A DNA stretch of 34,136 nt, taken from IMG/VR virus record IMGVR_UViG_3300025769_017291, positions 1 to 34,136 of that record, one strand, 5' to 3'. Source of the stretch: a virus. A model generated the notes under the pieces. The model was not told the origin of the DNA and made no database searches. It saw only the letters and a program-made list of their open reading frames with translations. The position numbers and the translations under genes are program-made. Shown piece by piece: positions 3,599 through 20,389 of the stretch. The stretch's first letter is position 1. Each line of letters opens with the position of its first letter.

Positions 3599-3662
3599 AT
3601 AAAGAACCACAAAAAGCTTCAATCTTCCAAAAAAAATTCCCAAATTGAAAAAAATGTCCGAT

Positions 3663-3692: not shown

Positions 3693-3700
3693 AAGCCCCA

Positions 3701-4393
3701 ATGAGAATCACCAAATCAATCTTGAAAAAGATCATCAAAGAAGAGATCCTTCTAGAAATGATGGACAATCCAATTGCAAAGATGAGACAATTTGCTGCCG
3801 ATGACCACAAAAACATTAAAAATATCATACAAGCCTACAAACTAGCAGGCTCAATACAAAATGAAAATATGAAAAGAATGGCAATTGACTATTTCATGAG
3901 ACACTTTGGAGACGAACTGCATAGGATCAATCTGGGGAGAGCCAATCTGGAAACCTCCAGTCCGGAGGGAGTCAACCTGAAGAAAGCCAGTCTACAGAAA
4001 GCCAATTTGAGAGGAGTCGATCTGAAGGGAGTTAATCTGGAGGAAGCTAGTCTTTGGTGGGCCGGCCTAAAGGGAGCTAATCTGGAAGGAGCCGATCTAC
4101 AGGGAGCCGATCTACAGTCAGCCAATCTAGTGGAAGCCAATCTGCATAGAGCCAATCTTGAGGGAGCCAATCTGGAGTACGCCTATATGAAGAAAGCCAA
4201 TCTAACAGAAGCCAATCTGGAGGGAGCCATTCTGAAGGGGGCCTTTGCGTCGGGAGTCAATCTAGCGGGAGCCAATCTTGAGGGAGCCAATCTGGATGTC
4301 GCCGATCTGGAGGGAGCTACATACAACTCCAAGACTAAATTCAGTACAGGTTTCAACCCAGAAGAACGTGGTATGGTCTTAGTTAAGAAATAA
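3701..4393 (+). CDS. Tagged pentapeptide-repeat protein 1
   Basis: A 230-residue protein. The tag is residues 1-20 ([21 protein letters not shown]12-K13-E14). A helical linker (21-75) is followed by about 26 A(N/D)LxG-type pentapeptides at roughly 76-208, enough for a right-handed quadrilateral beta-helix of six to seven coils, then a short cap. In MfpA and Qnr this fold mimics B-DNA and binds gyrase; whether this protein does so is not shown. The DNA is built of degenerate 15-base units (GGAGCCAATCTGGAG-like), so copy number can change by recombination. It is a paralog of the protein at 6030 across the linker as well ([12 protein letters not shown]). It leads an operon with 4418 and 5113. 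Confidence 0.85.
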   Translation: MRITKSILKKIIKEEILLEMMDNPIAKMRQFAADDHKNIKNIIQAYKLAGSIQNENMKRMAIDYFMRHFGDELHRINLGRANLETSSPEGVNLKKASLQKANLRGVDLKGVNLEEASLWWAGLKGANLEGADLQGADLQSANLVEANLHRANLEGANLEYAYMKKANLTEANLEGAILKGAFASGVNLAGANLEGANLDVADLEGATYNSKTKFSTGFNPEERGMVLVKK

Positions 4394-4417
4394 GATTCCG
4401 AATAAAAAGGAAAAAAA

Positions 4418-5116
4418 ATGAAAATTAGCAAATCAACCTTAACCAAAATTATCAAAGAAGAAATTTTAAAAGAAATGACAACAGGTAATGAGCGATTCGC
4501 TCGAATCAGACAAGCTCTAGAGTCTGGTCAGGATATCCCGCCTGAAATTAGCAGGGAATTTACGCCCATGGAGGCAGATTTTGTTCGCCACCATCGTGCG
4601 GAAGAACGCCTTCATCAGCTTCGCTCTTTCTTTTTACGTGGGGAAAGAATCCCTCCCCTCAGAAACTTATCAGATTCAGAAAAAAAAGTGATTTTTAAAT
4701 CACTTGGGGAACTTGGGAACTCTCCCGGAATTCGAAACCAGCTAACTGGTCATCTGATGGATCAGTTCCCCTTGCGCGCTAGTGATGCAATTACTGCGGC
4801 TTTTGAAGACTTTGTTGCAGAAAAAAACTTGAATGAAGACCCCCAATTCGAAGAGGGATTCGAGAACCAAGAATATATGACTAATTATTTCGATATCCAC
4901 AACCAATTGGTTCTTGGCACGATCGAGAGGGCTGGAGGCGATTATCTTTATGATCATATTAAAGGTAAGGATCTTATGTCTGAATTAGAAAAAAAAATAG
5001 GCGAGTACATTCAAAAATGCACCAACCCTAGGAAAAGACCAGCAAAATTTAAAATCATACCTTACAGTAAATATCAATGGAATGCAGATGAAGATGATTA
5101 TGGAGAAGAACTATGA
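4418..5116 (+). CDS. Tagged hypothetical protein, paralog of the next gene
   Basis: A 232-residue protein with tag [20 protein letters not shown] (I12-K13-E14). After the tag, 'RFARIRQALESGQDIPPEI' and 'PMEADFVRHH' parallel '[16 protein letters not shown]' and '[10 protein letters not shown]' in the protein at 5113, so both share an N-terminal body domain of about 50 residues as well as the tag. The rest is acidic and helical with no known motif, ending in a DEDDYGEEL tail. ATG 4418 follows AATAAAAAGGAAAAAA, a spacing and sequence repeated before 6030. Its stop overlaps the next start (ATGA). Confidence 0.75.
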   Translation: MKISKSTLTKIIKEEILKEMTTGNERFARIRQALESGQDIPPEISREFTPMEADFVRHHRAEERLHQLRSFFLRGERIPPLRNLSDSEKKVIFKSLGELGNSPGIRNQLTGHLMDQFPLRASDAITAAFEDFVAEKNLNEDPQFEEGFENQEYMTNYFDIHNQLVLGTIERAGGDYLYDHIKGKDLMSELEKKIGEYIQKCTNPRKRPAKFKIIPYSKYQWNADEDDYGEEL

Positions 5117-6018
5117 AGATCACCAAATCAATCTTGAAAAAAATCATCAAGGAAGAGATCCTTCGAGAGATGATGAGCAATCAACGTGTGGAGAAAATCA
5201 GGAATGCGCTAACAACAAATAGAGATCTTCCTTTCAAAGAATTTGAAAATCCTATCGAAGCAAAATACGTGATTCACAACTTGAAGGTTGATTCCGATCC
5301 TGTTGTTAATGTTTTCGAAAAACTTAACAAAGAGGAAACCGTGCTTTATAGCGACATCACACCAAAGTTTGTTATGACTCTTATGGAAAAACCCAATTTG
5401 TTCTTTGCTCTTGCAAAGAGCTATGGAATTCAAGTGAAAATCCCAGATGATTATTTATTTAGATGGCCTGTCGATATGAGTCTGAACAAAATCTTTTCCG
5501 GGGGAGATCGAGAAAAGATTGACATATATAGAGTTGAATTGAATCTAGACACAGAGGGCCGAAAAGTTCGCAGCTTCATGACTTACTTGAACGGTGATGT
5601 GATTGGCACTGCTGTTTCGGATACTCAAGCACGAAGGGTTATTTCTTCTCCCGGCGGAGAGACAGTAAATTTGCGCACCACCGCTCCAAACGATCCTGTT
5701 TTTCAAAAATATTTAAGTGGAAAATCAACAAAACAAGTTGTTGACGAACTTGAAAAAGAATTGGGTGCAAAAAAAGCTTTCGAGCAGTTCCAAAACACAG
5801 TTGAAGAAGTAGAGCATATGATGGTTTGGAATGGACGACCGGGCTTTTCAGCACAGGTTCCCGAATCTGGGGTCGGTGGTGAATTGAGTTTCCACGATTT
5901 TTCAAACTATGAAGAAGACATTACAAGAGAACATGTCTTGAAATATATTCCTTCTTTGCTTTTGAAGGTCATGGAGCCTGACGACAAACTTCGCACTTAT
6001 CTTGCAAGATCCAAATAA
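5113..6018 (+). CDS. Tagged hypothetical protein
   Basis: A 301-residue protein with tag [20 protein letters not shown] (I12-K13-E14). It shares a segment after the tag with the preceding protein. A mixed alpha/beta body follows ([20 protein letters not shown], then [14 protein letters not shown]), perhaps a small globular domain, then helices. No catalytic motif is recognised. Its ATG lies inside the previous stop codon (ATGA), so translation is probably coupled. Over the first 60 bases its tag is almost identical in DNA to the tag of the gene at 3701, although the bodies differ, suggesting tag exchange between genes. Confidence 0.75.
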
Positions 6019-6029
6019 AAGGAAAAAAA

Positions 6030-6782
6030 ATGAAAATCACTAAATCAATATTAACCAAAATCATTAGGGAAGAGATCCTTCGAGAGATGATGGGCAATGA
6101 TCATCCAATTGCAAAGATGAGACAATTTGTTGACGTTGGTCATAAAGACATTGAGAATATTGCACGAGCGTTTAAGATTTATGCGTCAATAAAGAATAAC
6201 GCTCCTTTACAACAACTTGCATATGAGTATTTCTTGAACCACTTTGGAGACGATGGTAAGGTCAATCTGGAAGGAGCCGATCTAAGGGGAATCGTTCTGA
6301 ACGGCGCAAGCTTGCAAGGTGCTAAATTAAGAGGTGCTAACTTAGAAGGTGCAAGTTTGAACGGCGCAAATTTGCAAGGTGCTGACTTAAGAGGTGCAAG
6401 TTTGAAAGGCGCAAACTTGCAAGGTGCTGACCTTACCGGCGCTAACCTTATTAACTCTTATTTGGATAAAGCGAACTTTACCGCCGCTGACTTGACAAAC
6501 TCATTCATGACAAATGTTAGATTAAATAAAACTAATTTTACAGATGCAAATCTAGCAAATGTTCGTTTGCTCCCCTTCCGAGAACTCCTAGGAAGCATTT
6601 TTAAAGGGGCTAAGTGGAATTCTCGAACCATGATTCACAATTACTGGTTCGGTGACACTGGTGAATACACCAATCCAAACTCTGAAAAGTTCAGGGAAGA
6701 TAACGAGTTGGTTCAAACGGACGAAGTAGGTCCAATGAATGCTCCTGCCGACGCGGTTCTTTTGAGTGATCTATTTAAATAA
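6030..6782 (+). CDS. Tagged pentapeptide-repeat protein 2
   Basis: A 250-residue protein with tag [20 protein letters not shown] (I12-R13-E14). The linker matches that of the protein at 3701 ([14 protein letters not shown]). About 21 pentapeptides follow at roughly 78-182: first very regular ([10 protein letters not shown] types) and encoded by near-repeating 30-base units, later more divergent (ANFTA, SFMTN). A 65-residue non-repeat tail ends the protein. The fold should be a DNA-like right-handed beta-helix. The ribosome-binding site AAATAAAAGGAAAAAAA matches that before 4418. It closes the operon that starts at 3701. Confidence 0.85.
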
Positions 6783-6806
6783 AAGGAAAAAATTTCAACT
6801 TGGAAG

Positions 6807-6833
6807 CTTTTGATCTATTTACTGTAACCAAAG
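6807..6833 (+). promoter_or_regulatory. CTATTTA element, copy C (degenerate)
   Basis: CTTTTGATCTATTTACTGTAACCAAAG keeps the TTTTGATCTATTTA core found at 8461 but has only a weak 4-5 bp stem (CTTTTG / CAAAG). It stands 27 bases before the start at 6860, in the only sizeable gap between 6030 and 7299. Confidence 0.4.
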
Positions 6834-6853
6834 AATTTTCATAAAAGGAGAAG

Positions 6854-6918
6854 ATATAAATGAAAATTACAAGAAAAATGCTGAAAAAAATCATTCTGGA
6901 AGCAATGGAAGAAGAACT
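6854..6918 (+). repeat. 65-base perfect repeat covering a tag, copy 1
   Basis: Bases 6854-6918 (last 6 bases of the leader plus the first 59 bases of the gene) are identical to 7293-7357. Outside this block the two genes have no visible similarity. The identity covers the tag codons even at third positions, indicating recent copying or gene conversion of the tag alone. Confidence 0.9.
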
Positions 6919-7270
6919 GGGTTCCAAAGAACGAGATATTGCCGTGCTTAAGGGAATTGGATTCCACCCAGACTATCTTTCGCATGCCAATATTGAGCAA
7001 GTGGTTGATTATGCTCACGGTGGCGGTGTCAAAGCGGATTACGACGACATCACGAACCTAGATATGGATCGCTACCTTCGCAAATTTGCTAAGGAAAACC
7101 CTAGGAGCGAAGCCGGAAAGGTAGCTGCCAGAATTAACCGGATGGTTCAAGCTCGGGCGGTTCAAGAAGATGAAATTAGCCGCACCCGCGATCAAGCCTT
7201 GGGCATGGAACCGCTTGATGACGGCTCTTACTTAACAAGGAGTGGTGGTCCGGACTTTGGCGAGTATTGA
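6860..7270 (+). CDS. Tagged hypothetical protein
   Basis: A 136-residue protein with tag MKITRKMLKKIILEAMEEEL. I12-L13-E14 is followed by Ala, the best match in the window to a T4-type (L/I)xE|A cleavage site. The body contains 'GFHPDYLSHANIEQVVDYAH' and an Arg/Ala-rich helix (AGKVAARINRMVQARAVQE), with a Gly/Asp tail. No family recognised. ATG 6860 follows AAAAGGAGAAGATATAA. The tag is DNA-identical to that at 7299. Confidence 0.75.
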   Translation: MKITRKMLKKIILEAMEEELGSKERDIAVLKGIGFHPDYLSHANIEQVVDYAHGGGVKADYDDITNLDMDRYLRKFAKENPRSEAGKVAARINRMVQARAVQEDEISRTRDQALGMEPLDDGSYLTRSGGPDFGEY

Positions 7271-7292
7271 GAGTAATTGACGAAAGGAAAAT

Positions 7293-7357
7293 ATATAAAT
7301 GAAAATTACAAGAAAAATGCTGAAAAAAATCATTCTGGAAGCAATGGAAGAAGAACT
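7293..7357 (+). repeat. 65-base perfect repeat covering a tag, copy 2
   Basis: Identical to 6854-6918 and placed at the same position relative to its start codon, so two unrelated bodies carry one recently duplicated tag. Confidence 0.9.
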
Positions 7358-8048
7358 TGAAAGTGGTATGCGAAAGCAAGAAATTGAAGATGCCATGGCC
7401 GAGGCCGAGGAAGAGTACATCAACTTTGTCCACTTCGGCCCATCAAACCTAACTCGTGACGAAATGAAATACGCATTCGAACTGGCGATCCAAAAAGGCT
7501 TAACATACAGCACCCCTAGAGAATCTGTTGATAAAGAACTCGCAGAATACGCGCTTCAATTGGCGATGGAAAACGATTCAGATGTTCCCTTTGCAGAGCA
7601 TCAATTGACCCGAGAGGCTAAAGAATGGATGAAAGGCGCTGCACTAGGAGCGCTTGGTGAAGGTATCAACAGTGAACTTCAGGCGGTTATAGAAAAAGTC
7701 AAGTCTTATGATCGTAGCAAGGCACAGGCTGGTCGTCCCATGATGCCGCAGCCCGGCGAACCCGATGCTCTCTCTAGAGAACTTACAAGAGCACTGGTTA
7801 AAAGCCCTCAATTGGTGCGCTTTCTTTTGCCACCGGGTAAGTATTACTCGGAGATCCGCCCTCAAGTGACCGACAATGGTTCTCACTACGCAATCGAATT
7901 TACAGACCGTGGTGGGCGAGGTTATGTGCTTATGCGAACATACGCTGATCCGGATGGAACACCTGTTTCCTTCGGAATGATGGCCCGAAAGCGCAAGGGT
8001 GTTCCGAAAATTAGCTATGCCGGTGTTACAAAGGGCAAGCAAAAGTAA
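7299..8048 (+). CDS. Tagged hypothetical protein
   Basis: A 249-residue protein with tag MKITRKMLKKIILEAMEEEL (I12-L13-E14). Residues 20-110 are acidic and helical. About 150-249 looks like a beta-rich globular domain (HYAIEFTDRGGRGYVLMRTY, then GTPVSFGMM), ending in a basic GVTKGKQK. I do not recognise a family. The ribosome-binding site GAAAGGAAAATATATAA precedes ATG 7299. It is followed after 15 bases by another tagged gene, so 6860, 7299 and 8064 form one operon. Confidence 0.75.
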   Translation: MKITRKMLKKIILEAMEEELESGMRKQEIEDAMAEAEEEYINFVHFGPSNLTRDEMKYAFELAIQKGLTYSTPRESVDKELAEYALQLAMENDSDVPFAEHQLTREAKEWMKGAALGALGEGINSELQAVIEKVKSYDRSKAQAGRPMMPQPGEPDALSRELTRALVKSPQLVRFLLPPGKYYSEIRPQVTDNGSHYAIEFTDRGGRGYVLMRTYADPDGTPVSFGMMARKRKGVPKISYAGVTKGKQK

Positions 8049-8063
8049 AAAGGAGGCAAAAGC

Positions 8064-8273
8064 ATGAAAATCACAAAGAAAATTCTGAAAAGAATGATCT
8101 TGGAAGCGCTTCAAGAACAAGTAGTAGAAATGCCTCCGTCCTATTTGCAAGCTAGAGAGGTTCCAGAACCAGCCCCAAGGGAAGAATCTTTGGAATCTAA
8201 ACTGGAAAGACTGAGGGAGGAAAGGCCAGAAGATTATGAACTGGTTATGGACATCCTCATGAGCCTAGGCTAA
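8064..8273 (+). CDS. Small tagged protein
   Basis: A 69-residue protein with tag MKITKKILKRMILEALQEQV (I12-L13-E14, then Ala), a Pro-rich linker (MPPSYLQAREVPEPAPREE) and one acidic helix (LESKLERLREERPEDYEL). If the tag is removed, about 55 residues remain, so it may be a minimal scaffold or core peptide. GGAGGCAAAAGC precedes ATG 8064. It is the smallest complete tagged gene in the window. Confidence 0.7.
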   Translation: MKITKKILKRMILEALQEQVVEMPPSYLQAREVPEPAPREESLESKLERLREERPEDYELVMDILMSLG

Positions 8274-8280
8274 ACCCCAA

Positions 8281-8457
8281 TTGAAATCTATTTGTAAGTC
8301 CTGCCAATTCTGCCGAATAATCACAACAAAACGCAATTCAAAATTCATCTTGTGCCAAAATGACAAGGTTGAAGAAAAATATCCCCGACAACCCCAACTT
8401 CAATGTCCTCACTTTTCTGAAAAAGGAAAAGACGGGAAAAAAAATCCTCAAATTTGA
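8281..8457 (+). CDS. Small Cys-rich (zinc-ribbon-like) protein, TTG start
   Basis: A 58-residue frame starting at TTG 8281, the only possible start after the in-frame stop at 8266. Residues include C5, C8, C11, then FILC (C25), then KYPRQPQLQC (C42) PHF. The pattern CxxCxxC, F-x-L-C, YPxxP-x3-C-x-[GH]-[YF] matches small phage/prokaryotic putative zinc-binding proteins as I remember them; zinc binding is inferred. The ribosome-binding site is weak, so expression may depend on coupling to the gene ending at 8273, 7 bases upstream. Unlike its neighbours it has no tag. Its last codons overlap the block shared before CTATTTA elements. Confidence 0.6.
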   Translation: MKSICKSCQFCRIITTKRNSKFILCQNDKVEEKYPRQPQLQCPHFSEKGKDGKKNPQI

Positions 8458-8458
8458 A

Positions 8459-8490
8459 CCTTTTTGATCTATTTATTGTGAGCAAAAAGG
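8459..8490 (+). promoter_or_regulatory. CTATTTA hairpin element, copy D
   Basis: A perfect 8-bp inverted repeat CCTTTTTG / CAAAAAGG encloses ATCTATTTATTGTGAG. Compared with copy A, the loop has diverged (TAATAA to TTGTGA) while both arms pair, so the pairing itself is conserved. AAAAAGGA, the ribosome-binding site for ATG 8501, is again in the 3' arm. The upstream AAATTTGAA is also shared with copy A. Confidence 0.55.
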
Positions 8491-8500
8491 ATGAAACCAA

Positions 8501-8740
8501 ATGAAAATCACAAAAGATCAAATAACTCAAATTCTTTTCGAAGAGATCACAAAATCCGAAGTGAAAAAGATCTCTAAAAAAGAAGCAAAGAAAATCAAAA
8601 AAGAAATCGAAAAAAGCTTTGAAAAGAACCTTCGCTCCAAGATCTCAAAAGAGATCATTGAAGATGTTGTGAAGGGCCTTCTCAAGAAGTTCCATCGCGA
8701 ACTTTCCGTTAATTATCCACAATTGATCAATCGACTTTGA
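8501..8740 (+). CDS. Tagged Lys/Glu-rich helical protein
   Basis: A 79-residue protein with tag MKITKDQITQILFEEITKSE (L12-F13-E14). The rest is one long, very basic and acidic helix (VKKISKKEAKKIKKEIEKSF onward). Such small Lys/Glu-rich phage proteins recur in marine phages and resemble core or scaffold components, though the function here is unproven. The TGA stop is followed in the same frame by 24 sense codons that encode another tag (see the relic at 8747), so stop read-through would append a second tag. Confidence 0.7.
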   Translation: MKITKDQITQILFEEITKSEVKKISKKEAKKIKKEIEKSFEKNLRSKISKEIIEDVVKGLLKKFHRELSVNYPQLINRL

Positions 8741-8746
8741 TTTAAA

Positions 8747-8815
8747 ATCAGAATTTCCAAAAGAAAAGTAAACAAGATACTTTCTGAAGAAATCAATAAA
8801 CTATTTAATATATAA
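8747..8815 (+). pseudogene. Orphan tag relic (tag without a body)
   Basis: Reading from ATC 8747 gives I-RISKRKVNKILSEEINKLF, then NI and a stop. This matches the tag consensus at every key position (I3, S4, K5, V8, I11, L12-x-E14, E15, I16) but has ATC where ATG is expected and stops after 22 codons. One base change (ATG to ATC) plus loss of the body would explain it. It is in frame with, and directly after, the TGA of the gene at 8501. No ribosome-binding site is visible. Confidence 0.6.
8801..8815 (+). promoter_or_regulatory. CTATTTA element, copy E (degenerate)
   Basis: CTATTTAATATATAA lies 22 bases before ATG 8837 and overlaps the tag relic. It keeps the CTATTTA core but has no flanking stem. 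Possible promoter for the gene at 8837. Confidence 0.35.
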
Positions 8816-8836
8816 AACAAAAGGAGAATATTTGAA

Positions 8837-9844
8837 ATGAAAATTTCCAAAAAAGAACTCCAAGAAATTATCTTGGAAGAACTTAAAAGAGAAATGCTTG
8901 AAGAAGGCGAACTTGAAGAAGGACTTGGAAGGAAACTTCGAAGCCTTTTTGGGATGCAAACCCAAGAGGATTTCGACGAACTCGTGCCAGAAGTTACTCC
9001 GGGTTCACAACTGGAAAAGGCAAAAAAAGAGTTGGAAAGGCTTGCAACGAAAGGAGGAGGCCCAAACATTGCTATGGCAGACTTTATTCGAGATTTTGGA
9101 AAGTCTGATCCTGAGCTTGAAAAACTTGCGGCCTCCTATGATGAACGCTCTCCCAACACGAAAGGACCAGTAACAACCGCCGCACAACGCCTCAGCGCTC
9201 GCGCCGCTGCATCAAGGCAAGTTGGGCCTCCGACTTATCGAGGAGCAGGGCCGCTGGGGGAGGGGTTTATCAACGAAGCTTTCGAAATGAACTCCCTTGG
9301 TAAAAAAGACATGATTTATCTTTTAAAAGCATTTTTAGAAAATCCACCTCGCGCTTTTACCGGTTTTAAACCAACCGAATTTCACAAAAAACTACAAGAC
9401 GAAGTGATTACTCCCAAGGAAGGGGAGACTAGGCCGGATGCCAGCCCTGAACCCACGGCAGACTCAAGAAGTGAAATGCGAAACAAAATTCGTCAAGCTT
9501 TTAAAAATCTTGAAAAACAAGATAAAACCGGTTTTAATACACTCTTTGATAAAGAAACTGAGATTAGAATAGGTGAATTTTTAAAAAGCGCAAGCGAGAA
9601 AGAACTATCTAGTCTGGTAGACGTGGTTGACAATCTATTAAGATATATTGATTTCAATAGATTGAAAGAGGTTATTCTCCAAGTTGTTGGAACTGGGAGA
9701 CCCCCCAGAAAGAAGAGAGAAGTCAAGATGGATGAGCGGCTCATTCGAGAAAATACATCCTTGACCGGGTGGGATATGGATGTGATAATCTTGGAAGAAA
9801 TCATCAAAGATGCCTTCATCAGGGGCACCATTCGGTTCTTTTAA
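8837..9844 (+). CDS. Large tagged hypothetical protein
   Basis: A 335-residue protein with tag MKISKKELQEIILEELKREM (I12-L13-E14). It contains a charged linker, an Ala/Arg/Pro-rich middle (TTAAQRLSARAAASRQVG), a helical block (KKDMIYLLKAFLENP), a disordered stretch (EGETRPDASPEPTADSRS) and a C-terminal helical domain. No catalytic motif is recognised. The multi-domain, partly disordered layout fits a core or scaffold-like virion protein. ATG 8837 follows AAAAGGAGAATATTTGAA. Its last 26 bases overlap the 3' end of the convergent nuclease gene. Confidence 0.75.
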   Translation: MKISKKELQEIILEELKREMLEEGELEEGLGRKLRSLFGMQTQEDFDELVPEVTPGSQLEKAKKELERLATKGGGPNIAMADFIRDFGKSDPELEKLAASYDERSPNTKGPVTTAAQRLSARAAASRQVGPPTYRGAGPLGEGFINEAFEMNSLGKKDMIYLLKAFLENPPRAFTGFKPTEFHKKLQDEVITPKEGETRPDASPEPTADSRSEMRNKIRQAFKNLEKQDKTGFNTLFDKETEIRIGEFLKSASEKELSSLVDVVDNLLRYIDFNRLKEVILQVVGTGRPPRKKREVKMDERLIRENTSLTGWDMDVIILEEIIKDAFIRGTIRFF

Positions 9845-11672: not shown

Positions 11673-12698
11673 ATGTCTAATTTTATGGAAGAATGGAAAT
11701 ATTTCTTGGAAAACAAGAAAGATCCTTTGCCAAAGTCTCCTTTTCAAAAGAAAATGTTCAAAAATCACCCAAAAAAGAAGAAAGATCTTATTGGGAAGGG
11801 TGGGAACAAGTATAAGTCTAAGCCTTATACCGAAAAACCTTCAATGAAAAGGTCAAAATCTGCACCTCCTATTGGCGAAGCAAAAATTAAAGTTATTTTG
11901 AAAGAATTTATCTCAATGTTTGATTATTCTTCTTTTAATGTTCGAGATAGCCTTAATCCAGCCTTTTGGGGTGAAAAAGATGTTTTAAAAGCGGAAGTTG
12001 CAAACAAATTAATCCAAATTGGAAAAGACTTTTTTGAAAACAATCTTAAATTTCCAAAAAATGTCAAATTGATTGATATTAAATTTACAGGCTCTTTGGC
12101 GAACTACAACTGGACTGATAATTCCGACATTGACCTTCATCTTGTTATCGATTTTAAGAAAACAGGTGCCGATCCAAGCCTGATCCGTGATTATGTTAAT
12201 TCTAAAAAGAATCTTTGGAACGAACAGCACGACATTATGATGAAAGGTCACGAAGTTGAGATTTATGTTGAAAACTTAAGCGAAAAACATTATTCAACAG
12301 GTGTTTACTCTCTTTTGAATAATGAATGGATTGTTAAACCTTCCCCTGTTAAGCCTAGGATCGATGATCAGCAAATTATGGTTAAAATCAACGGCTTTCA
12401 ACAAAAGTTGGATCATTTAAAAGACCTTTTCGCAAAAGGACAATACAAGTCCTCTTTTATTTACGCCGAAAGTTTAATGGACAAGTTAAAAAATATGAGA
12501 ACTGCCGGTCTTGTGAAAGGTGGCGAGTTTTCTGTTGAAAACCTAACTTACAAAGCACTTCGCAAAGTTGGATTCATTGAAGAGATCTTTGATCTTAAGC
12601 ACGAAGCATATGACAAGATGATGTCTGTTGAATCGTCTGGTAATACACCGGGAGAACATCCCGTAGATCAAGGAACTTTAGTTTACTCAAATTTATAG
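11673..12698 (+). CDS. Polymerase-beta-type nucleotidyltransferase with N-terminal W-F motif
   Basis: A 341-residue protein. 'FTGSLANYNWTDNSDIDLHLVID' shows the superfamily signature: G140-S141, then D152-x-D154, with E196 in 'VEIYVE' as the likely third carboxylate. It should transfer a nucleotide to a protein, RNA or small molecule; the substrate is unknown. The N-terminus MSNFMEEWKYFLENKK resembles the second, W-x-x-F type of putative targeting peptide, then a Lys/Pro-rich disordered linker (to about 68) leads into the enzyme. The C-terminal 100 residues are helical. AAAAAAGGAAAAATAA precedes the start. If packaged, the enzyme could be injected with the DNA. Confidence 0.8.
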   Translation: MSNFMEEWKYFLENKKDPLPKSPFQKKMFKNHPKKKKDLIGKGGNKYKSKPYTEKPSMKRSKSAPPIGEAKIKVILKEFISMFDYSSFNVRDSLNPAFWGEKDVLKAEVANKLIQIGKDFFENNLKFPKNVKLIDIKFTGSLANYNWTDNSDIDLHLVIDFKKTGADPSLIRDYVNSKKNLWNEQHDIMMKGHEVEIYVENLSEKHYSTGVYSLLNNEWIVKPSPVKPRIDDQQIMVKINGFQQKLDHLKDLFAKGQYKSSFIYAESLMDKLKNMRTAGLVKGGEFSVENLTYKALRKVGFIEEIFDLKHEAYDKMMSVESSGNTPGEHPVDQGTLVYSNL

Positions 12699-12707
12699 GG
12701 CCTCACT

Positions 12708-13016
12708 ATGTTTAACGAAAAACAAATCAAACTCTTTCTTTGGGCAACCATCATCTTCAATCTGATCGATACAGTTGTTTCAATTTATGTTATCAAATTT
12801 GGGAATTTAAAAGAATCAAATCCAATAATGGACTTTTTCTTGAAGTTTGATTCAATTATGCCCTTTGTTTTTGCAAAAATGTTTTTGATCTGTTCTGGTT
12901 CTTACATTATTTGGAAAAGAAGAGATATGCTGATCGCTCAATTGGGAGCTTATTTTGTTTTTGGGTTTTATTGGGCTTTAATTGTTCAATTTTACTTTTT
13001 TTTAGTTTTAAAATAA
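12708..13016 (+). CDS. Small multi-span membrane protein, DUF5658-like
   Basis: A 102-residue protein with three hydrophobic segments (about 8-30, 50-68, 78-100). 'FNLIDTVVSIYVIKFGN' then 'ESNPIM' follows the pattern N-x2-D-x3-T/S... G-x5-E-x-NP-x-M that I associate with DUF5658 membrane proteins, of unknown function. Its start is 9 bases after the preceding stop, so it is co-transcribed with the nucleotidyltransferase. Family call is tentative. Confidence 0.65.
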   Translation: MFNEKQIKLFLWATIIFNLIDTVVSIYVIKFGNLKESNPIMDFFLKFDSIMPFVFAKMFLICSGSYIIWKRRDMLIAQLGAYFVFGFYWALIVQFYFFLVLK

Positions 13017-13047
13017 CTAATTAAGTTAAAACAAAAGGAACTTATAT

Positions 13048-13935
13048 ATGTCTAAATTTAGCTCGTATGAAAAAGATAAAAAAATATTTGATAATTGGCG
13101 GCAATTTGTGATCAAAGAACAAGTACAAGTTTCCGAAGAAGAGAAAAAAGCCCTGCAAGATTTAAAGTTTGGTCAAAAGTACGCAGTGGAAGATTTAAAA
13201 GATGTAAAAAATGTTGGTGGTTTATTGTACTTTTTAACCATCAAAAAAATTCTTAAAGTTGGACAATGGGATGAGGTTAAAACTAGTTTAGCACAAGGAT
13301 TAGAAAAAGTTGCTGATCAGCCTAAAAGACCGGTTATTGGAAAGTTAACTGGCTTTCTAAAAAATGCTCTGGGTGCGGGGGTGGCCGGTGCTACCGTTGG
13401 CACTCTTTTAACTTGGGCTGGAGCGACCACTTTAGCTGCCGCATCAGCCCCCGCCGCTGGCGTGGCTTTTGTTGGGCTAGCCCTTCTTAATCAAGTTGCT
13501 GGTGATACCGTTAACAAAGTGGTTGATAGTTTGTTTGATTTTGGATTGAAAACACTAGCAAATGAGAATAAAGAACTATTAGCTCAGTTGATAGGTCAGC
13601 CAGACACCGGGAAGGGTAAAAACACTAATGCTCCTTTGATTGGGTTGTTTGACCTAGATGATGATTATCAAGCTCTTGCCAGAGTTGTGACAGGAAAAAA
13701 TCCTGATGAATATTCCGATGTGGAAAAAGAGTCTTTGCAGTTGTTTTTAGAAAAGATTATTAAAGCTAGTATTGGTAATTTAGATACCACGATTGAAGAA
13801 ATTTCTGCACAACTGAATCATGACGCTGAGTTTAAAAAACTTATCAACAAAAAGCTCGGTATTGATGTGGGTGCAACAGAATCTAGTGTGGGATTGTATA
13901 TGGATGCCGATAAGAAAAAAGCTCCACAAAAATAA
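13048..13935 (+). CDS. W-F-tagged protein with membrane hairpin
   Basis: A 295-residue protein. The N-terminus has F14-DNWRQFVIKE (I22-K23-E24), a clear case of the second putative targeting motif ending in IxE. Residues 100-160 contain a Gly/Ala-rich hydrophobic pair (GAGVAGATVGTLLTWAGATT; APAAGVAFVGLALLNQVAG) able to form a membrane hairpin. The rest is acidic and helical. Like the protein at 2693, it joins a putative targeting peptide with membrane-inserting segments and could be ejected into the host envelope. No family is recognised. ACAAAAGGAACTTATAT precedes ATG 13048. Confidence 0.7.
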   Translation: MSKFSSYEKDKKIFDNWRQFVIKEQVQVSEEEKKALQDLKFGQKYAVEDLKDVKNVGGLLYFLTIKKILKVGQWDEVKTSLAQGLEKVADQPKRPVIGKLTGFLKNALGAGVAGATVGTLLTWAGATTLAAASAPAAGVAFVGLALLNQVAGDTVNKVVDSLFDFGLKTLANENKELLAQLIGQPDTGKGKNTNAPLIGLFDLDDDYQALARVVTGKNPDEYSDVEKESLQLFLEKIIKASIGNLDTTIEEISAQLNHDAEFKKLINKKLGIDVGATESSVGLYMDADKKKAPQK

Positions 13936-13954
13936 TATAGGAACTACATTTATA

Positions 13955-14863
13955 ATGCAAGAAATCAACAACAATACAGATCGAGATCTTTCTTCTCTTC
14001 AAAATATTTTAACTTCCTTTCTTCCTTATGCAAAAGAAAGATTGGGCTACGACAAGCCTTGTTGCGTTAATTTTGTGTCAGATGTTGAAAACTCAAAAAT
14101 GGACTTTGGCAAGACTGCTTATTATGATCCTTCAAATATGGAGATTGTAATTTATGTGGATGGAAGACATCCAAAAGATATGCTTCGTTCTATTTCTCAC
14201 GAATTGGTTCATCACGCACAAAATTGCAGAGGAGACTTTGATTTTCAGTTTGAAACAAATCCCGGATACGCTCAAAACAACCAAAAATTAAGAGAATTGG
14301 AAGCAGAAGCCTATTTACTAGGAAACGGATTTCTTGTAAGAGATTTTGAAGATTCAATAAAATTAGGAGACCAAGTTCTAATGGAATGGAAAAATAAAAA
14401 GAAAAATATCTTGAAAGAGTATAAAGATGTTTCTAGTGTCGAAAGAATCAAAAAGTTACCACAAACAGAAAAGTTTCTGGAAGTTATTAAAAAGCTAAAA
14501 ATTGACGATCAAAAAGAAGTGGCTCAAATTTCTAGTTGGCTTCTTCAAACTTTAGGCGTTAACGCAGAGACAATGAAAAAAGTTGTTCCTCTGCAACTGG
14601 CTGATCTAAAAGACGATCTAAAGACCTCAAATAAGGGAAAAGAAAGCATGAAAGAAGAAAAACTAAAAAATAAGAAAAAAGCTGATCTAAACAAAGATGG
14701 CGAAATTTCTTCGTACGAGGAAAAACGAGGAAAAGCAATTGAAGCTGCAATGGAAGACAGTGCTAAAGGAGATAACGAAAAAGGCGATGTCAAAGAACAT
14801 TATATCACTCGTTCTGAAATCGTCGGAAATGAATTAATGAAGCGTTGGTTTTCTAAAAAATAA
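13955..14863 (+). CDS. Zinc metallopeptidase with EF-hand-like tail
   Basis: A 302-residue protein. 'SISHELVHHAQN' provides HExxH (H82, E83, H86), and E116 or E118 in 'RELEAEAYLLGN' is the likely third ligand. The front half is a compact peptidase-like domain. The back half is helical and ends with 'ADLNKDGEISSYEEKRGKAI', an EF-hand/dockerin-like calcium loop (D-x-N-x-D-G-x-I-x-x-x-E) of a type seen in marine phage proteins. An 'ILKEY' at about 150 could be an internal (L/I)xE cut site. The frame is open upstream to 13820, but ATG 13955 is preferred because the upstream part overlaps the previous gene; ATAGGAACTACATTTATA precedes it. Confidence 0.78.
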   Translation: MQEINNNTDRDLSSLQNILTSFLPYAKERLGYDKPCCVNFVSDVENSKMDFGKTAYYDPSNMEIVIYVDGRHPKDMLRSISHELVHHAQNCRGDFDFQFETNPGYAQNNQKLRELEAEAYLLGNGFLVRDFEDSIKLGDQVLMEWKNKKKNILKEYKDVSSVERIKKLPQTEKFLEVIKKLKIDDQKEVAQISSWLLQTLGVNAETMKKVVPLQLADLKDDLKTSNKGKESMKEEKLKNKKKADLNKDGEISSYEEKRGKAIEAAMEDSAKGDNEKGDVKEHYITRSEIVGNELMKRWFSKK

Positions 14864-14878
14864 AAAGGATTTGTAAAA

Positions 14879-15136
14879 ATGGGTAGAAAAAAGAAAAGAC
14901 TTCGAATTTTGAAAAGACAACTTGATGCTAAAAAAGCATTGGAAGCTCTAGAGTTAGAAAAAGAACTTGCTCTAAAGGCAGAAGCAGAAAAGAAAGCGGC
15001 AGCAGAAGCTGAAGCAAAGAAAAAAGCCGAAGCTGAAGCAAAGAAAAAAGCCGAAGCTGAAGCAAAGAAAAAAGCCGAAGCAAAGCCAAAACCTAAAAAA
15101 GCAACAAAGAAAAAGGTAGTGAAAAAAGATGATTGA
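14879..15136 (+). CDS. Lys/Ala/Glu-rich helical protein with tandem repeats
   Basis: An 85-residue protein of low complexity: a basic head (GRKKKRLRILKRQLDAKK), an EAEAKKKA-repeat helix and a Lys/Pro-rich tail. The repeat resembles the TolA stalk in composition and should form a long, soluble single helix able to bind nucleic acid or acidic partners. Three perfect 24-base units lie at 15005-15076. The ribosome-binding site is AAAAAGGATTTGTAAA. The stop overlaps the next gene by 8 bases. Function unknown. Confidence 0.65.
   Translation: MGRKKKRLRILKRQLDAKKALEALELEKELALKAEAEKKAAAEAEAKKKAEAEAKKKAEAEAKKKAEAKPKPKKATKKKVVKKDD
15005..15085 (+). repeat. 24-bp tandem coding repeat (3.4 copies)
   Basis: Three perfect head-to-tail units of 24 bases (GAAGCTGAAGCAAAGAAAAA plus AGCC) at 15005-15028, 15029-15052 and 15053-15076, then a partial unit. 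Each encodes EAEAKKKA. The unit length keeps the reading frame, so slippage would lengthen or shorten the helix by eight residues. Confidence 0.95.
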
Positions 15137-15320
15137 TCATCGCAAAATGGCTCGTGACTTCCTAGAAGGAAAAACCAAACAAGAATATACCCTTTTAGAG
15201 CACCTTCAAGAAATTGAAAAAGAAGTCGAGCAATTACCTTCGGGCTGGAGAAAAGAACAAGTCAAAGAGCACATCAAAAGTGCCAAAAGAAAAGCAAGAA
15301 TTTTAACCAAGGATAATTGA
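15129..15320 (+). CDS. Small charged hypothetical protein
   Basis: A 63-residue protein (MIDHRKMARDFLEGKTKQEY onward), helical and charged with a conserved-looking 'LPSGWRKEQVKEHIKSAKRK'. Not recognised. It starts within the end of the preceding gene (8-base overlap) and ends four bases before the large fusion gene, so all three are translated from one message. Confidence 0.65.
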   Translation: MIDHRKMARDFLEGKTKQEYTLLEHLQEIEKEVEQLPSGWRKEQVKEHIKSAKRKARILTKDN

Positions 15321-15324
15321 TAAC

Positions 15325-18231
15325 ATGCAAGAAGAACTTCTTCTAGAGGGCGGCTTGGCCGGTCACATGTCCCACCTTTATGAAAATCCAAAACTTAAGT
15401 TTTCCGACATTAAAGAGATTTTCCGGAAAGCCGGAGTTGGAGAACTAGAGGGGACTGAAAAAACAGATGGTCAAAACCTTTTTATCTCGTATGACCTCGC
15501 TTCTAGCGAAGCGAGGGCAGCTAGAAACAAAGGGAACATTGCTAAAGGTGGGATGAACGCTGCTGAATTAGCTCAAAAGTTTGGCGGTCGTGGCTCTTTG
15601 GAAATTGCTTTCACGGAAGCTTTCAGCGCCTTTGAGAAAGCAGTCCAAACCCTCTCTGACGAAGAGATTTTAGACCTCTTCGGAGAAAGCGCAGATATTT
15701 TCTACAATGCTGAAATCCAAGATCCAAGAAACCCCAACGTTATTCAATACTCTATTCCCACTTTGAATATTCACCGCGTTGGCCATGTTAAAGTTGAGGA
15801 CGGCAAGCCAGTTTCTACAGATGATGTATCTTCAGATTTAGTTGCAAAATTGGAAAATGCAATTGAAAAAATCAAAGAAAAAGATGTTTTAGATAATTTT
15901 AGAATTCAAGTCAATGCTGTCCGAAGATTAGAGAAATTTGACAATGAAAACATCGCAAACGAATTCATTAATCGATTAGAAAGCTTAATTTCCGATGCTG
16001 GTCTTTCTGATTCAAACACTATTGGAGATTACCTTACCTTAAAGATTGTCCCAATGATCGTGGAAGACTTTCCTTTAATTCCGGAAGAGAAGCTGACCCT
16101 CTTGATGAAAAGGCTTTTTGAAGGAACTTCTGTTAAGCTTAATGACATCAAAGAAGGTCTACCAAAAGAAGCCCAACAACAAGTTTCAGCGGCATCTAAA
16201 AAGCTAGGCAAATACTTTAAAAAAGCTGTTAAACCTTTAGAAATGCTTGTCCATCAGTTCGCTGTTGAAATTCTTAAAAACTTTCAAAGCGCTTTTGTTT
16301 TGGATAACAAAGAAGAAGTCCAAAGATTGCAAAAAGAAGTTTCGGATGCTATCTCCGCAATCAGAGGCTCCGGTGTTGAAGAAGCTATTGGAATATTGAA
16401 CACACAATTAGAAAAACTTGTTGATGCAGAGGGTGTCTCTACTGCTGCTGAAGGTTTTGTTTTTGATTACGATGGAAAAACATACAAATTCACTGGTAAC
16501 TTTGCCCCTGCTAACCAACTCCTAGGTTTATTTAAATACGGCAGAGGAAAGATTCCCGCTTTGCAAAACCTTTTGCAAGAAAAGAAAAAGTTGGTTCTCC
16601 TTCCCGGTGGCTTCAAGCCGCCTACTAAAGCTCACAAGGCGATGATTGACTACTATGCTAGCCTGCCCGATGTTGAGAAGGTTTTGGTCCTGATCGGTCC
16701 CAAGTCTAGAGAAGAGTTTTCTAGAGAGCAATCAATGAAAACTTTTGATCTTTACAATTTAGATGGCAAAGTAGAAGTATTGGAGACTGATTATAATTCT
16801 CCCATTATGGCCGCTTATGAGTTTTTGATCAGCGACGAGAGAAGGGAAGCTTACAAAGATTTAGCTTTTACAATGGGTGCCGGCTCAAAAGACACGGACT
16901 CGAAAAGAATCGAAGAGTTTAAAAACTATTTTGAAGTTAAAAACCCAGACAAACTTCCGGAAGGGTTTTCTGTTGATGTTATCTCGCCCTGCGAAACACA
17001 ACCTTGTGTTGGGCCAGATGCCACTCCAATCAGTGCCACAAAACTTCGAAACGCAATTAGATCTAGGAATAAAGAGGCTATCAAGACAATGATTCCAGAT
17101 AACATTGATGTTGATCGCTTTATAGAGATCTATGACACTGGAAAACTCGAAGAAGCCTCTTCAATGGCTGCTGGAAACGTTCAGGGCTATTCTGCTCCTA
17201 TTTTCAAGAAAAAGAAAAAGGATAAGAAAGAAGAATTGAAAAAACTCATTAACAAAGGGATAGAAACCGTGAAAGAACAAAAAAGAATAGAAGAAGCGAA
17301 GTTTCGACAGATTGTCCAAGCTTTGGTTGTAAAAAAATACAAAACCCTTTTAGAACAAGAAGAGATGAAAGCAGGGGAAAGATCTACTGCTATTAACTAT
17401 CTTGAAAAAGTTCTGAAAATGATCATTCCGGGCAAAGTGGGCGGTTCCCAGTTGGAGCCAGAATACAGCGCCCTATCTACAGCAGCAGAACGTAGATCTT
17501 TCATTAAGCACGTTATTCAAGGTCTTTATGACGAGATTGCACCTGAAATATCTTTGGATGGTCTTATTTCTCGCTTCGAAGGAAGAAGGGAAGCTTTCTC
17601 GCAGAAAGATAAGCAGCCACTTATGGAACAGGAAGACATTAAAATTACTTTGGATGCTGAAGGGTTGCCAAAAACCGAAAAAGAAATTGAAGATGAAGAG
17701 TTGGCAGCGTCCGATGGCTTGACTACTGGTAAAGTTACCGATCGAGGCCCAGAAGATGATTTTCCGGAACCTCTCTCTGGTGAAAACTCGATTGGTCGGA
17801 AAGCAGCTTATCGCTTTATCTCAACCCAAAAAGCAACCATTGAAAATGCTCTAAAAGACCTTCAAATGACACCAGAAGAACTAGACATCTTCAAAAGAGA
17901 AAATCCCAACAAAGAAGAGCCTCAAGTCGAGTTTTTAGACTTTTTGTTTACCAATATCGCTCTTCATTTTGATCGTCTGGAAAACAAATATTTCAACTCT
18001 GAAGTTTCAATTTCACAAGACTTTTTCCAGAATGTGCTGAAACAAGCAACGGACGAAAAAGAAGCCGGTGCAGATATTGCGACCGCATCCGATCAGGCTG
18101 AACCTGACCTTGGGACTGAGGAGGGAGAAGTTGAATTAGACTTGGGAGAAGAAACTCCGGAAGGGGAAGAAGAATTGGAGCTTGACTTAGGAGAGGAAGC
18201 TCCAGAGGAAGAACTGGAGATTGAACTTTAA
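15325..18231 (+). CDS. Ligase-like adenylyltransferase fused to cytidylyltransferase-like domain
   Basis: A 968-residue protein. Domain 1 (about 10-410) starts 'GLAGHMSHLYENPKLKF' and carries motif I of covalent nucleotidyltransferases, K46-T-D-G49 in 'GTEKTDGQN', a possible motif III 'FYNAEI' (E130) and motif IV 'EGFVF' near 376, as in DNA/RNA ligases. Domain 2 (about 423-590) has 'LPGGFKPPTKAH' (HxGH-like, H437) and 'ISATKLR' (569), typical of cytidylyltransferase/NMNAT-fold enzymes. A helical region follows, then an acidic Glu/Asp/Leu tail of about 50 residues. Similar proteins are widespread in marine myophages, usually named only for the second domain. Likely chemistry is nucleotidyl transfer to RNA or DNA ends or a cofactor; the substrate is unknown. 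L6-L7-E8 could be a protease site. Confidence 0.8.
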   Translation: MQEELLLEGGLAGHMSHLYENPKLKFSDIKEIFRKAGVGELEGTEKTDGQNLFISYDLASSEARAARNKGNIAKGGMNAAELAQKFGGRGSLEIAFTEAFSAFEKAVQTLSDEEILDLFGESADIFYNAEIQDPRNPNVIQYSIPTLNIHRVGHVKVEDGKPVSTDDVSSDLVAKLENAIEKIKEKDVLDNFRIQVNAVRRLEKFDNENIANEFINRLESLISDAGLSDSNTIGDYLTLKIVPMIVEDFPLIPEEKLTLLMKRLFEGTSVKLNDIKEGLPKEAQQQVSAASKKLGKYFKKAVKPLEMLVHQFAVEILKNFQSAFVLDNKEEVQRLQKEVSDAISAIRGSGVEEAIGILNTQLEKLVDAEGVSTAAEGFVFDYDGKTYKFTGNFAPANQLLGLFKYGRGKIPALQNLLQEKKKLVLLPGGFKPPTKAHKAMIDYYASLPDVEKVLVLIGPKSREEFSREQSMKTFDLYNLDGKVEVLETDYNSPIMAAYEFLISDERREAYKDLAFTMGAGSKDTDSKRIEEFKNYFEVKNPDKLPEGFSVDVISPCETQPCVGPDATPISATKLRNAIRSRNKEAIKTMIPDNIDVDRFIEIYDTGKLEEASSMAAGNVQGYSAPIFKKKKKDKKEELKKLINKGIETVKEQKRIEEAKFRQIVQALVVKKYKTLLEQEEMKAGERSTAINYLEKVLKMIIPGKVGGSQLEPEYSALSTAAERRSFIKHVIQGLYDEIAPEISLDGLISRFEGRREAFSQKDKQPLMEQEDIKITLDAEGLPKTEKEIEDEELAASDGLTTGKVTDRGPEDDFPEPLSGENSIGRKAAYRFISTQKATIENALKDLQMTPEELDIFKRENPNKEEPQVEFLDFLFTNIALHFDRLENKYFNSEVSISQDFFQNVLKQATDEKEAGADIATASDQAEPDLGTEEGEVELDLGEETPEGEEELELDLGEEAPEEELEIEL

Positions 18232-18908
18232 TTCAACAAAGAATGAATCTTGTCACAAACCTCTGGACATTTCCTGCAAACTTCTTCCCTATCATAGCAA
18301 AAATAATCAGTGAAAACAACCGCATAATATTCCCTCAAAGAGGCCGCTGAATAAGGGGAAGGAAAACCTCCCAAGTGACCTCTCAATTTAGAATACCCCA
18401 CCTCTTCGTGAAAAAAGACATCCAAGTTTGGATTAAATTCTACCTTCAAGAAAGCTTTTTTATCACAATCATAACCGGCGCTTGTCAAGTTATTATAAAG
18501 ATTGTATCTTTTGTTGATAAAGTGATCTCTAATCTCTCCATCGCCATAGATATGATCTTGAAACTTTATCTCAGTGAAATGTGCCAATTCGTGAACAATA
18601 TCATCTAACATATCTTCAAAATCATCTTGTTTATTTGTGATATAAATTGTATTGTCTTTGAATACAGCATTCCTGTTCAACTCATCAAACTCTTTTAAAT
18701 GAGCCATATAGAAGCCATCTAAGCCCTCAACCAATTGAGGGGGGATCATATCTTCTACTCTTTGGATTACTGCTTCCGGGTTCACTTTTGAATAATCTGG
18801 TTCATGGACGATAACAAAAGGTACGCCGTGGATAAAATATTCTTTCATTTTCTTGTTTGAATAGCTGTTGCTATTGTGCCTTTCCGTTAAAAGTTGCCTC
18901 ACGCTCAT
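18228..18908 (-). CDS. Zinc metallopeptidase candidate with Cys-rich tail
   Basis: A 226-residue protein. 'DIVHELAHFTE' gives HExxH (H106, E107, H110), and E in 'SLREYYAVVF' is the probable third ligand. The tail has four Cys (FCYDREEVCRKCPEVC), possibly a second metal site or disulfides. Start choice: ATG 18908 (AAGGAATTTATTGAAA upstream) gives MSVRQLLTERHN, with L7-T8-E9 matching the prohead protease rule; ATG 18848 would remove 20 residues and has a poorer ribosome-binding site. The frame runs open to 19037, but that part overlaps the next gene fully. The stop shares TTAA with the convergent gene end at 18231. Confidence 0.72.
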   Translation of the reverse strand: MSVRQLLTERHNSNSYSNKKMKEYFIHGVPFVIVHEPDYSKVNPEAVIQRVEDMIPPQLVEGLDGFYMAHLKEFDELNRNAVFKDNTIYITNKQDDFEDMLDDIVHELAHFTEIKFQDHIYGDGEIRDHFINKRYNLYNNLTSAGYDCDKKAFLKVEFNPNLDVFFHEEVGYSKLRGHLGGFPSPYSAASLREYYAVVFTDYFCYDREEVCRKCPEVCDKIHSLLN

Positions 18909-19113
18909 TTTCAATAAATTCCTTTGCAAAGTCAAAATCTTGTGCTGCTTGTTCATATCCTCGAAAAAAGTTCTCTTCTGCAATAGCGATAACAAATTCA
19001 GGAAATTCATCAGCAACAACCTCAACAATGTTCTCAACTGTTACTTCTTCTTTTTCCTTATCGAGCAGGAGCTTCTCTCCAACATAATCAATCAAATATT
19101 GTTTTAAATCCAT
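18871..19113 (-). CDS. Small acidic conserved phage protein
   Basis: An 80-residue acidic protein (MDLKQYLIDYVGEKLLLDKE; 'VADEFPEFVIAIAEENFFRG', then YEQA). The sequence feels familiar from marine phages, where a short protein with 'AEFPEFxxAxAEENFxRGY' occurs, but no function is known to me. GAGGTGTAAA precedes its ATG, behind a possible promoter at 19138. Its 3' end overlaps the metallopeptidase start by 38 bases. Confidence 0.7.
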   Translation of the reverse strand: MDLKQYLIDYVGEKLLLDKEKEEVTVENIVEVVADEFPEFVIAIAEENFFRGYEQAAQDFDFAKEFIENEREATFNGKAQ

Positions 19114-19137
19114 TTTACACCTCGTTTTCTTTTTTAC

Positions 19138-19166
19138 ATTATAACACAGTTTGATTACAATTTAAA
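19138..19166 (-). promoter_or_regulatory. Possible sigma-70-like promoter
   Basis: Minus strand: TATAAT (19143-19138) with TTTAAA (19166-19161) at exactly 17 bp. The -10 is perfect, the -35 weak. It would give the 80-residue protein and metallopeptidase their own start inside the leftward block. Confidence 0.5.
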
Positions 19167-19679
19167 GTGTTTTATGCAATTTTTTATTCCAAAGTGAATT
19201 GGAGCGTTTACGCTTCTTTTTCTACTACCGGGAAATTTAAACTTGGAAGATTTAAGTTTGCAATCTTTTTTGATGCACATTTTGATCTCATCTAAGTCAA
19301 CCCAACACCAAGCATCATGTTCGGAATTCAACCTAGGTTCGAACTCATCAACAACTTCAACCAAGAAGGTGGTGTATTTAAAATCTTCTCTTTCATTGAC
19401 AAATTTGTCCATATAATCACGACCAGAAAGGTCTCTTCCAATCTCTTCTAGAGTTTCTCTTTGTGCTGTTTTTTCTGGCTTTTCACCTACCTTGGCGTGA
19501 CCGCCGGGAGAAGCAAGATGACCTGTCTCGGAACCATCTGCTCTTTTCAAGAGTAGAACGCTATCCTTCTGAGGGCAGTAAACAAAGAAGCCAGCACCTT
19601 CGTCTTGAGAGTCTTGATCTCTCAAGCTTTCTCTGATAAACTTACCCCATCCAAATTGAATATATTCTTCTTTTGACAT
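19155..19679 (-). CDS. Nudix hydrolase with N-terminal W-F motif
   Basis: A 174-residue protein. The Nudix box is G60-HAKVG-E66-KPEKTAQ-R74-E75-TL-E78-E79-I-G81, complete apart from Thr at the first hydrophobic position. It should cleave a nucleoside diphosphate linked to another moiety using Mg2+: NTP clean-up, NADH/ADP-ribose or RNA cap removal are all possible. The N-terminus has 'FGWGKFIRESLRD' (I15-R16-E17), the second putative targeting motif, placed before the Nudix fold. Helices and a basic tail close the protein. AAAAAGGAGACAACA precedes ATG. It lies 17 bases after the pentapeptide gene in one leftward operon. Confidence 0.85.
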   Translation of the reverse strand: MSKEEYIQFGWGKFIRESLRDQDSQDEGAGFFVYCPQKDSVLLLKRADGSETGHLASPGGHAKVGEKPEKTAQRETLEEIGRDLSGRDYMDKFVNEREDFKYTTFLVEVVDEFEPRLNSEHDAWCWVDLDEIKMCIKKDCKLKSSKFKFPGSRKRSVNAPIHFGIKNCIKHFKL

Positions 19680-19696
19680 TTGTTGTCTCCTTTTTA

Positions 19697-20389
19697 TTAA
19701 AACGGCTCATCTTCATCGTCTTCAAATTGAGTTGTGCCCGGACCGAACCAATCCATCCCCTTCGCTTCTGGATCAAGGTTGTCTGGTAGTATTGTGTTTT
19801 CATTGTATTTTGCGTCTTGAAGATTTGCGCCTTCAAAGTTAGATCCTTGGAAGCTAGATCCTTGAAGGTCTGCTCCTTGAAGATTTGCGTCTTTGAAATC
19901 ATATTGTTTGAAAATGCTGTTGCTTAGATCAGCCCCGGAAAGGTTTACGCCGGCGAAAGATGGCCGGTTGGCAGGATCAAACTCTTTATTTGCCAAGAGA
20001 TCTTTGACTTTGTTAACTGCATATGTAAAAGCTTCTGTATTCCATTCTTTGTCGTCCGGGCTTACATAGACATATGGCCCTGAGTCTGGGTCCATTTCGC
20101 TTTTTTCAAATCCAAACGTTTTTAAAATACCTTCATGATTTGGCCCATCAACATCGATAGAAGAGTACCTTTTTTGAATCTCTCCCTTTGAAGGAAAGAT
20201 CTTTTCCATCTCCGGTAAATGACGAATAGCATAATCAAGTGCGATTCCTTCCCCATCTAAAAGATCCATAATTTTGTATTTGTCTGGCTCTGGCTCCATT
20301 AAAAGTTGGCGGATCTCTGCAAAGGTTCTGTTTACATCCTCATCTTCTTTTAAAACAAACTTTCTCCAATTTTCCATAATCAATTTCAT
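19697..20389 (-). CDS. Pentapeptide-repeat protein 3 with W-F tag
   Basis: A 230-residue protein. The N-terminus MKLIMENWRKFVLKEDED carries W8-x-x-F11 and L13-K14-E15, the second type of putative targeting peptide. Residues 20-140 are alpha/beta and unrecognised. About 10 pentapeptides ([26 protein letters not shown]) lie at 145-196, too few for more than 2-3 beta-helix coils. A strongly acidic tail (TTQFEDDEDEPF) follows. The post-repeat 'AKYNENT...PEAKGM' resembles 'ATYNSKT...PEERGM' in the protein at 3701. Its ATG overlaps the PhoH stop by one base (TAATG), so translation is coupled to PhoH. Confidence 0.8.
   Translation of the reverse strand: MKLIMENWRKFVLKEDEDVNRTFAEIRQLLMEPEPDKYKIMDLLDGEGIALDYAIRHLPEMEKIFPSKGEIQKRYSSIDVDGPNHEGILKTFGFEKSEMDPDSGPYVYVSPDDKEWNTEAFTYAVNKVKDLLANKEFDPANRPSFAGVNLSGADLSNSIFKQYDFKDANLQGADLQGSSFQGSNFEGANLQDAKYNENTILPDNLDPEAKGMDWFGPGTTQFEDDEDEPF

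Follow-up and report, generated by a model that had tools for sequence, protein, structure and literature searches.

Genes and leader peptides of the window

The window (the whole stretch of DNA analysed, 34,136 bases) is an entire IMG/VR record. Short N-terminal leaders built around W-x-x-[FY] were located on genes for a nucleotidyltransferase, a 295-aa protein, a Nudix hydrolase and a pentapeptide-repeat protein (Table 1). The peptides quoted in an earlier, sequence-only reading of this DNA were found where it had placed them, at the N-termini of products whose genes have ribosome-binding sites. That reading had proposed the formula W-x-x-F-[hydrophobic]-x-E, which taken literally fits only GWGKFIRE of the Nudix protein; the pentapeptide-repeat and 13048 proteins are one residue longer, NWRKFVLKE and NWRQFVIKE being of the form W-x-x-F-V-[LI]-K-E. 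The [LI]-x-E end is present in genes 13048, 19155 and 19697 and absent from gene 11673, whose EWKYFLEN had rightly been described as lacking a clean LxE. Distant orthologs of this nucleotidyltransferase, in G043 and G030, have MYTWKKFIEE and MNKWKKFLDE, with WKKFIEE or WKKFLDE lying directly before the domain. Homologs in cyanophages begin at the domain, with no leader, and the leader is therefore an add-on to the nucleotidyltransferase. In the Nudix protein, the Pfam NUDIX domain begins at residue 29, after the leader. In unrelated phages (G005 and G020), the W leaders on Nudix proteins are different ones, MKKWHNFVSE and MKGYVKAWKEFLEE. Genes 13048, 13955, 15325 and 18231 matched no family in Pfam or PHROGs.

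An early LxE had also been taken as a sign of packaging in the metallopeptidase-like protein at 18228. This argument did not survive: among genes in general, 8-15% have an [LI].E as early as this (first 8-12 residues), so that it cannot by itself mark this protein, for which no support for a cut was found beyond the early LxE.

Table 1 Leaders, junctions and related features (positions in the window unless a contig is named)
Feature	Position	Strand	Gene and remarks
Nucleotidyltransferase leader MSNFMEEWKYFLEN	11673..11714	+	Gene 11673-12698; stem present, cleavage triplet degenerate (L-E-N)
Long leader MSKFSSYEKDKKIFDNWRQFVIKE of the 295-aa protein	13048..13119	+	Gene 13048-13935; protein with Gly/Ala-rich hydrophobic stretch
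Short leader MQEELLLE, followed by GGLAGHMSH	15325..15348	+	Gene 15325-18231; fusion enzyme
Internal junction LEE/ASSMAAGNV of the fusion enzyme	17146..17181	+	Residues 608-619; resembles a gp23 cleavage junction
Early LxE of metallopeptidase-like protein, MSVRQLLTE	18882..18908	-	Gene 18228-18908; chance level
Nudix hydrolase leader MSKEEYIQFGWGKFIRE	19629..19679	-	Gene 19155-19679
Pentapeptide-repeat protein leader MKLIMENWRKFVLKE	20345..20389	-	Gene 19697-20389
Other leader, MKITKxxLxxII[KR]EE and close variants	2693..9844	+	Ten genes
Candidate leader peptide of W type, MKLLFENWRKYLNE
W-leader proteins with scaffold-type C-terminus	L289:9861-11504; L524:10287-11840
Recurrent M..K..LLxE gene	G001:20763; G005:620; G020:163706; G043:79853; G040:172687; G030:147367

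Motif frequency

A regular expression that was widened after inspection of the data, W..[FY].?[LIVM].E, matched the N-terminal 34 residues of 3 of the 41 window genes. The mean after shuffling of the N-termini was 0.037 and none of 2,000 shuffles reached three matches. No internal match was found at 8,982 positions of the window proteins. An N-terminal excess of the same pattern was obtained in G001, G008, G005 and G007, G001 being a near relative of the window that repeats its genes. In contigs picked by a different leader, 33 of 1,236 genes matched, against 1.3 expected from the internal rate. Random viral contigs had the motif in none of 1,154 genes; for the random control, a 16-base pattern gave 13 stretches only and a 14-base pattern was added.

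The leader as a module in IMG/VR

IMG/VR was searched for DNA encoding the stem MKL-x-F-E-N-W-R-K-[FY] (x is elsewhere given as [LI]). The query was restricted to the stem and the following residues were left free, because the three residues after the stem were the test. Seventy-four stretches were recovered, with 82 distinct and mostly unrelated proteins. Of 71 non-redundant stem proteins, 45 have [LI].E starting at residue 12 and nine have it starting at residue 13; at each later position it starts in 0-3 of them, which is near background. Thus 54 of the 71 have [LI].E at one of two adjacent positions, and about a quarter are without a clean in-register [LI].E. Both registers occur in the window, in its Nudix and pentapeptide-repeat proteins, the latter having the window's nearest match to the IMG/VR consensus MKLLFENWRKFLxE.

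One hundred leader proteins could be aligned over this consensus only (about 14 residues), with a mean column identity of 5%. Their matches are spread over 18 families in Pfam and 57 in PHROGs. Six are protein kinases and three are Nudix proteins, and there are matches to DnaJ, SAM lyase, HD, RNase_T and 5'-nucleotidase; some members of the stem set are clearly homologous to one another. A tblastn search of phage records with the bare 20-residue leader returned nothing, probably because the query was too short.

T4-like phage context

Close relatives of the window, with proteins 90-96% identical, were found on contigs of 157, 94, 31 and 12 kb. A prohead protease of the Peptidase_S77 (gp21) type is encoded on both of the large contigs, those of the near-identical relatives G001 and G004, as is a gp23-type capsid protein. 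The window phage is therefore T4-like. The window record itself, a 34-kb fragment, has no gp21. The gp21 of G001 itself begins MSKKLLTE.

The stem was phage-specific in that it had no match in 84,980 prokaryote genomes. Of the 13 leader contigs that reach 95 kb, 12 encode gp21. No gp21 was found on G005, a leader contig of 122.7 kb. One search of 41 leader contigs gave gp21 on 12 of 12 of at least 95 kb and on 2 of 29 shorter ones; short contigs are uninformative here because leader genes and gp21 can be far apart. Random contigs of at least 50 kb had gp21 in 2 of 16 cases, only two control contigs being of at least 95 kb, one of them with gp21. The association with gp21 could reflect the descent of one T4-like clade instead of function.

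The proposed likeness to the start of the T4 internal proteins was supported by a T4 control: among 262 called genes, N-terminal [WY]..[FY][ILV].E matched IPII and IPIII only. The aromatic pair has the same spacing in both, W-x-x-[FY] in the leader and Y-x-x-F in IPII and IPIII. T4 gp21 cleaves after L/I-x-E. Residues 4 and 7 of the IPIII signal are important for targeting, and residues 8 and 10 for processing (PMC9026906). Leader residues W8, F/Y11, L12 and E14 are spaced as these four T4 residues are. No enrichment of the T4-type late promoter TATAAATA was found upstream of the leader genes, and its absence there counts against head targeting.

The fusion enzyme

The product of gene 15325 seems, by eye and from the annotation of its relative in Microcystis phage Mel-JY01, to join a ligase-like KTDG module to a nucleotidyltransferase-like module. 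Its early LxE, which had been put forward as a sign of packaging, carries little weight alone; a cut is backed by its GG start and by an internal junction. Homologs (in the window, G020, G026, L317 and Mel-JY01) start with either M-GG[VL]AGHM or [LI]-x-E-GG, and a cut after [LI]-x-E would therefore leave the same GG N-terminus in both types. The internal junction LEE/ASSMAAGNVQGY is a near-copy of the junction LLKE/ASSMAAGDVEGF in gp23 of G001. From the position of this junction, and by analogy with T4, gp23 of the relative would be cut at that point. In an IMG/VR search for the junction, 117 of the 121 matches listed lay in gp23. Residues E610, S612, S613, G617, N618 and V619 are invariant in five fusion enzymes, within a linker that cannot be aligned.

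Five sequences yielded only a poor AlphaFold2 model of the fusion enzyme (mean pLDDT 47.8), which was set aside. The junction region had a pLDDT under 50, like much of the model. The isolate Mel-JY01 has no convincing genes with W or MKITK leaders; its three matches to the regular expression appear to be due to chance.

Long leaders, scaffold peptide and second leader

The leader of the 13048 protein belongs to a longer subtype, S-S-[FY]-E...W-R-x-[FY]-L-x-E, whose carriers on other contigs are 292-548 aa long. In two of these (518 and 548 aa) the C-terminus reads R-W-x-x-[LI]-A-G-I, which in this phage group is the signature of the scaffold protein gp22. Across 12 genomes and fragments this end occurs in ten genes, nine of them gp22-like and one with an MKI-type leader. 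Because of this scaffold-type peptide, the two proteins (L289 and L524 in Table 1) may have an address at both ends.

Ten consecutive window genes begin with MKITKxxLxxI-type sequences on otherwise different proteins, among them pentapeptide-repeat proteins and a 301-aa protein with hydrophobic stretches. Of 172 non-redundant IMG/VR proteins found with M-K-I-T-K-x-x-L-x-x-I-I, 165 have E at residue 14, which makes I-x-E; a second peak of LxE lies at residues 19-22. MKITK and W leaders occur on the same contigs, and it may be that both direct proteins to the same head, with MKITK as an additional address.

A further recurrent gene (Table 1) has an M..K..LLxE start followed by F-x-K-L-A-[NG], which looks like the R-M-x-x-L-A-G-I of the scaffold C-terminus moved close to the N-terminus.

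Interpretation and alternatives

Taken from sequence comparison, the W leader is very probably a capsid-targeting sequence of a T4-like phage that would be proteolytically removed from its enzyme cargo. The steps that we infer are docking to the scaffold, cleavage, packaging and ejection of the leader proteins. The aromatic pair of W-x-x-[FY]-(x)-[LI]-x-E would bind the prohead scaffold core and the bound leader would carry the attached protein into the prohead. The gp21-type protease would then cleave after the glutamate and free the enzyme inside the head, to be injected into the bacterium along with the DNA. The MKITKxxLxxII[KR]EE leader and the gp23-like internal junction of the fusion enzyme would be parts of the same system. 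The proposal that enzymes are packaged and cleaved as in T4 is thus supported, with a second register added to the motif and the metallopeptidase argument removed.

If the leader instead sorted proteins elsewhere (to the membrane, a replication compartment or another phage complex), LxE would be a docking surface and not a cleavage site. Leaders without a clean in-register triplet, that of the window's nucleotidyltransferase among them, fit this and count against head targeting; the rival is also helped by the fact that packaging is something we infer. It is nonetheless unlikely, since LxE directly adjoins the stem, the fusion enzyme has a gp23-like junction, two leader proteins carry a scaffold-like C-terminus and the T4 control returned the two internal proteins only. 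Less probable still is that the stem is a DNA or RNA element (a translation enhancer, a promoter or a recombination seam) of which the peptide is a by-product. The codons for L4, F5 and E6 are unusually uniform, in keeping with this (CTA in 33/62, TTT in 69/71 and GAA in 70/71 cases, against 14%, 78% and 72% for the same codons in other gene starts). Leu3, Arg9 and Leu12 are each written in five or six codons, the upstream DNA shows a weak ribosome-binding site only, and the window leaders vary in flanking residues and spacing and keep W, F and LxE, all of which speak against such an element. The uniformity of codons 4-6 is not explained by targeting alone and counts against head targeting; the leader may have spread as a DNA cassette.

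Two other explanations were rejected and are given next to no probability. Descent of the shared N-terminus from one ancestral gene would suit those members that are clear homologs of each other, but it is contradicted by unrelated folds: similarity ends at about residue 14 and the proteins fall into unrelated Pfam families. Chance matches to a short and loose motif might be suspected, as the LxE element alone is so common and the expression was broadened after looking. The shuffle tests in the window and four other genomes argue against this, together with the difference between the independently chosen contigs and the random ones.

Comparison with known systems and significance

The capsid-targeting sequence (CTS) of T4 was reportedly described by Mullaney and Black. 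The W leader and the CTS of IPII and IPIII (MKTYQEFIAE) are both short N-terminal sequences in which an aromatic-x-x-aromatic element is followed by [LI]-x-E, on unrelated proteins and in phages with a gp21-type protease. The W leader differs in having Trp for Tyr, the stem MKLLFENWRK, two registers and the longer SSFE subtype. Its cargo, known from sequence alone, consists of predicted kinases, Nudix proteins, nucleases and a nucleotidyltransferase, several per genome. Internal proteins of T-even phages are diverse and the CTS alone is conserved (PMC3012670). T4 also has an enzyme in its head, the ADP-ribosyltransferase Alt, which bears a propeptide at either end, each cut by gp21 (PMC9026906). 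The fusion enzyme of the window likewise has N-terminal and internal candidate sites; no sequence relation to Alt was found. In phage P1, the N-terminal signal of DarB suffices to bring a reporter into the head (PMC9024508), and the giant phage SPN3US cleaves proteins of its head and packages a large number of proteins; these are different phages, likened to the leader system by description. Polyvalent phage proteins are predicted virion-packaged enzymes that act early in infection (PMC5512222). Whereas those are multidomain proteins, the cargo described here consists mostly of separate enzymes under a common short tag.

The T4 system and the conservation of the CTS alone were thus already known, and a Trp-type leader with enzyme cargo at such a scale would be a new variant. 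A search of the open full-text literature, in which few subscription journals are represented, gave no report of this leader or of a Trp-type leader with enzyme cargo at that scale in uncultured phages.

A broader proposal, for and against which we see an equal case, is that two or more swappable N-terminal addresses (W, MKITK and perhaps the short M..LLxE) form a general cargo-loading code in uncultured T4-like phages and have spread as DNA cassettes onto many enzymes. Each virion would then bring in, as infection begins, a large set of effectors particular to its phage, and this set could be read from the sequence alone. T4 heads contain few internal proteins. With a rule for recognising head cargo in sequence, the enzymes that enter the host could be listed for many uncultured aquatic phages, including kinases, SAM lyase, Nudix hydrolases and nucleases. 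SAM lyase activity is known from anti-restriction. The rule would also provide further tags with which to load proteins into phage heads.

Other features of the window

Positions 1-2000 have a G+C content of 53%, against 33-43% elsewhere in the window, and may be a separate genome segment or mark a join made in assembly. Positions 23144-33651 contain a series of sugar-related genes (glycosyltransferase-, epimerase-, nucleotidyltransferase- and HAD-like, named from the look of their sequences). A further match of the Nudix domain of gene 19155-19679, at profile positions 517-624 of 794, is to phrog_15528, which has a portal-protein annotation, and there may therefore be a Nudix-portal fusion in some phages.
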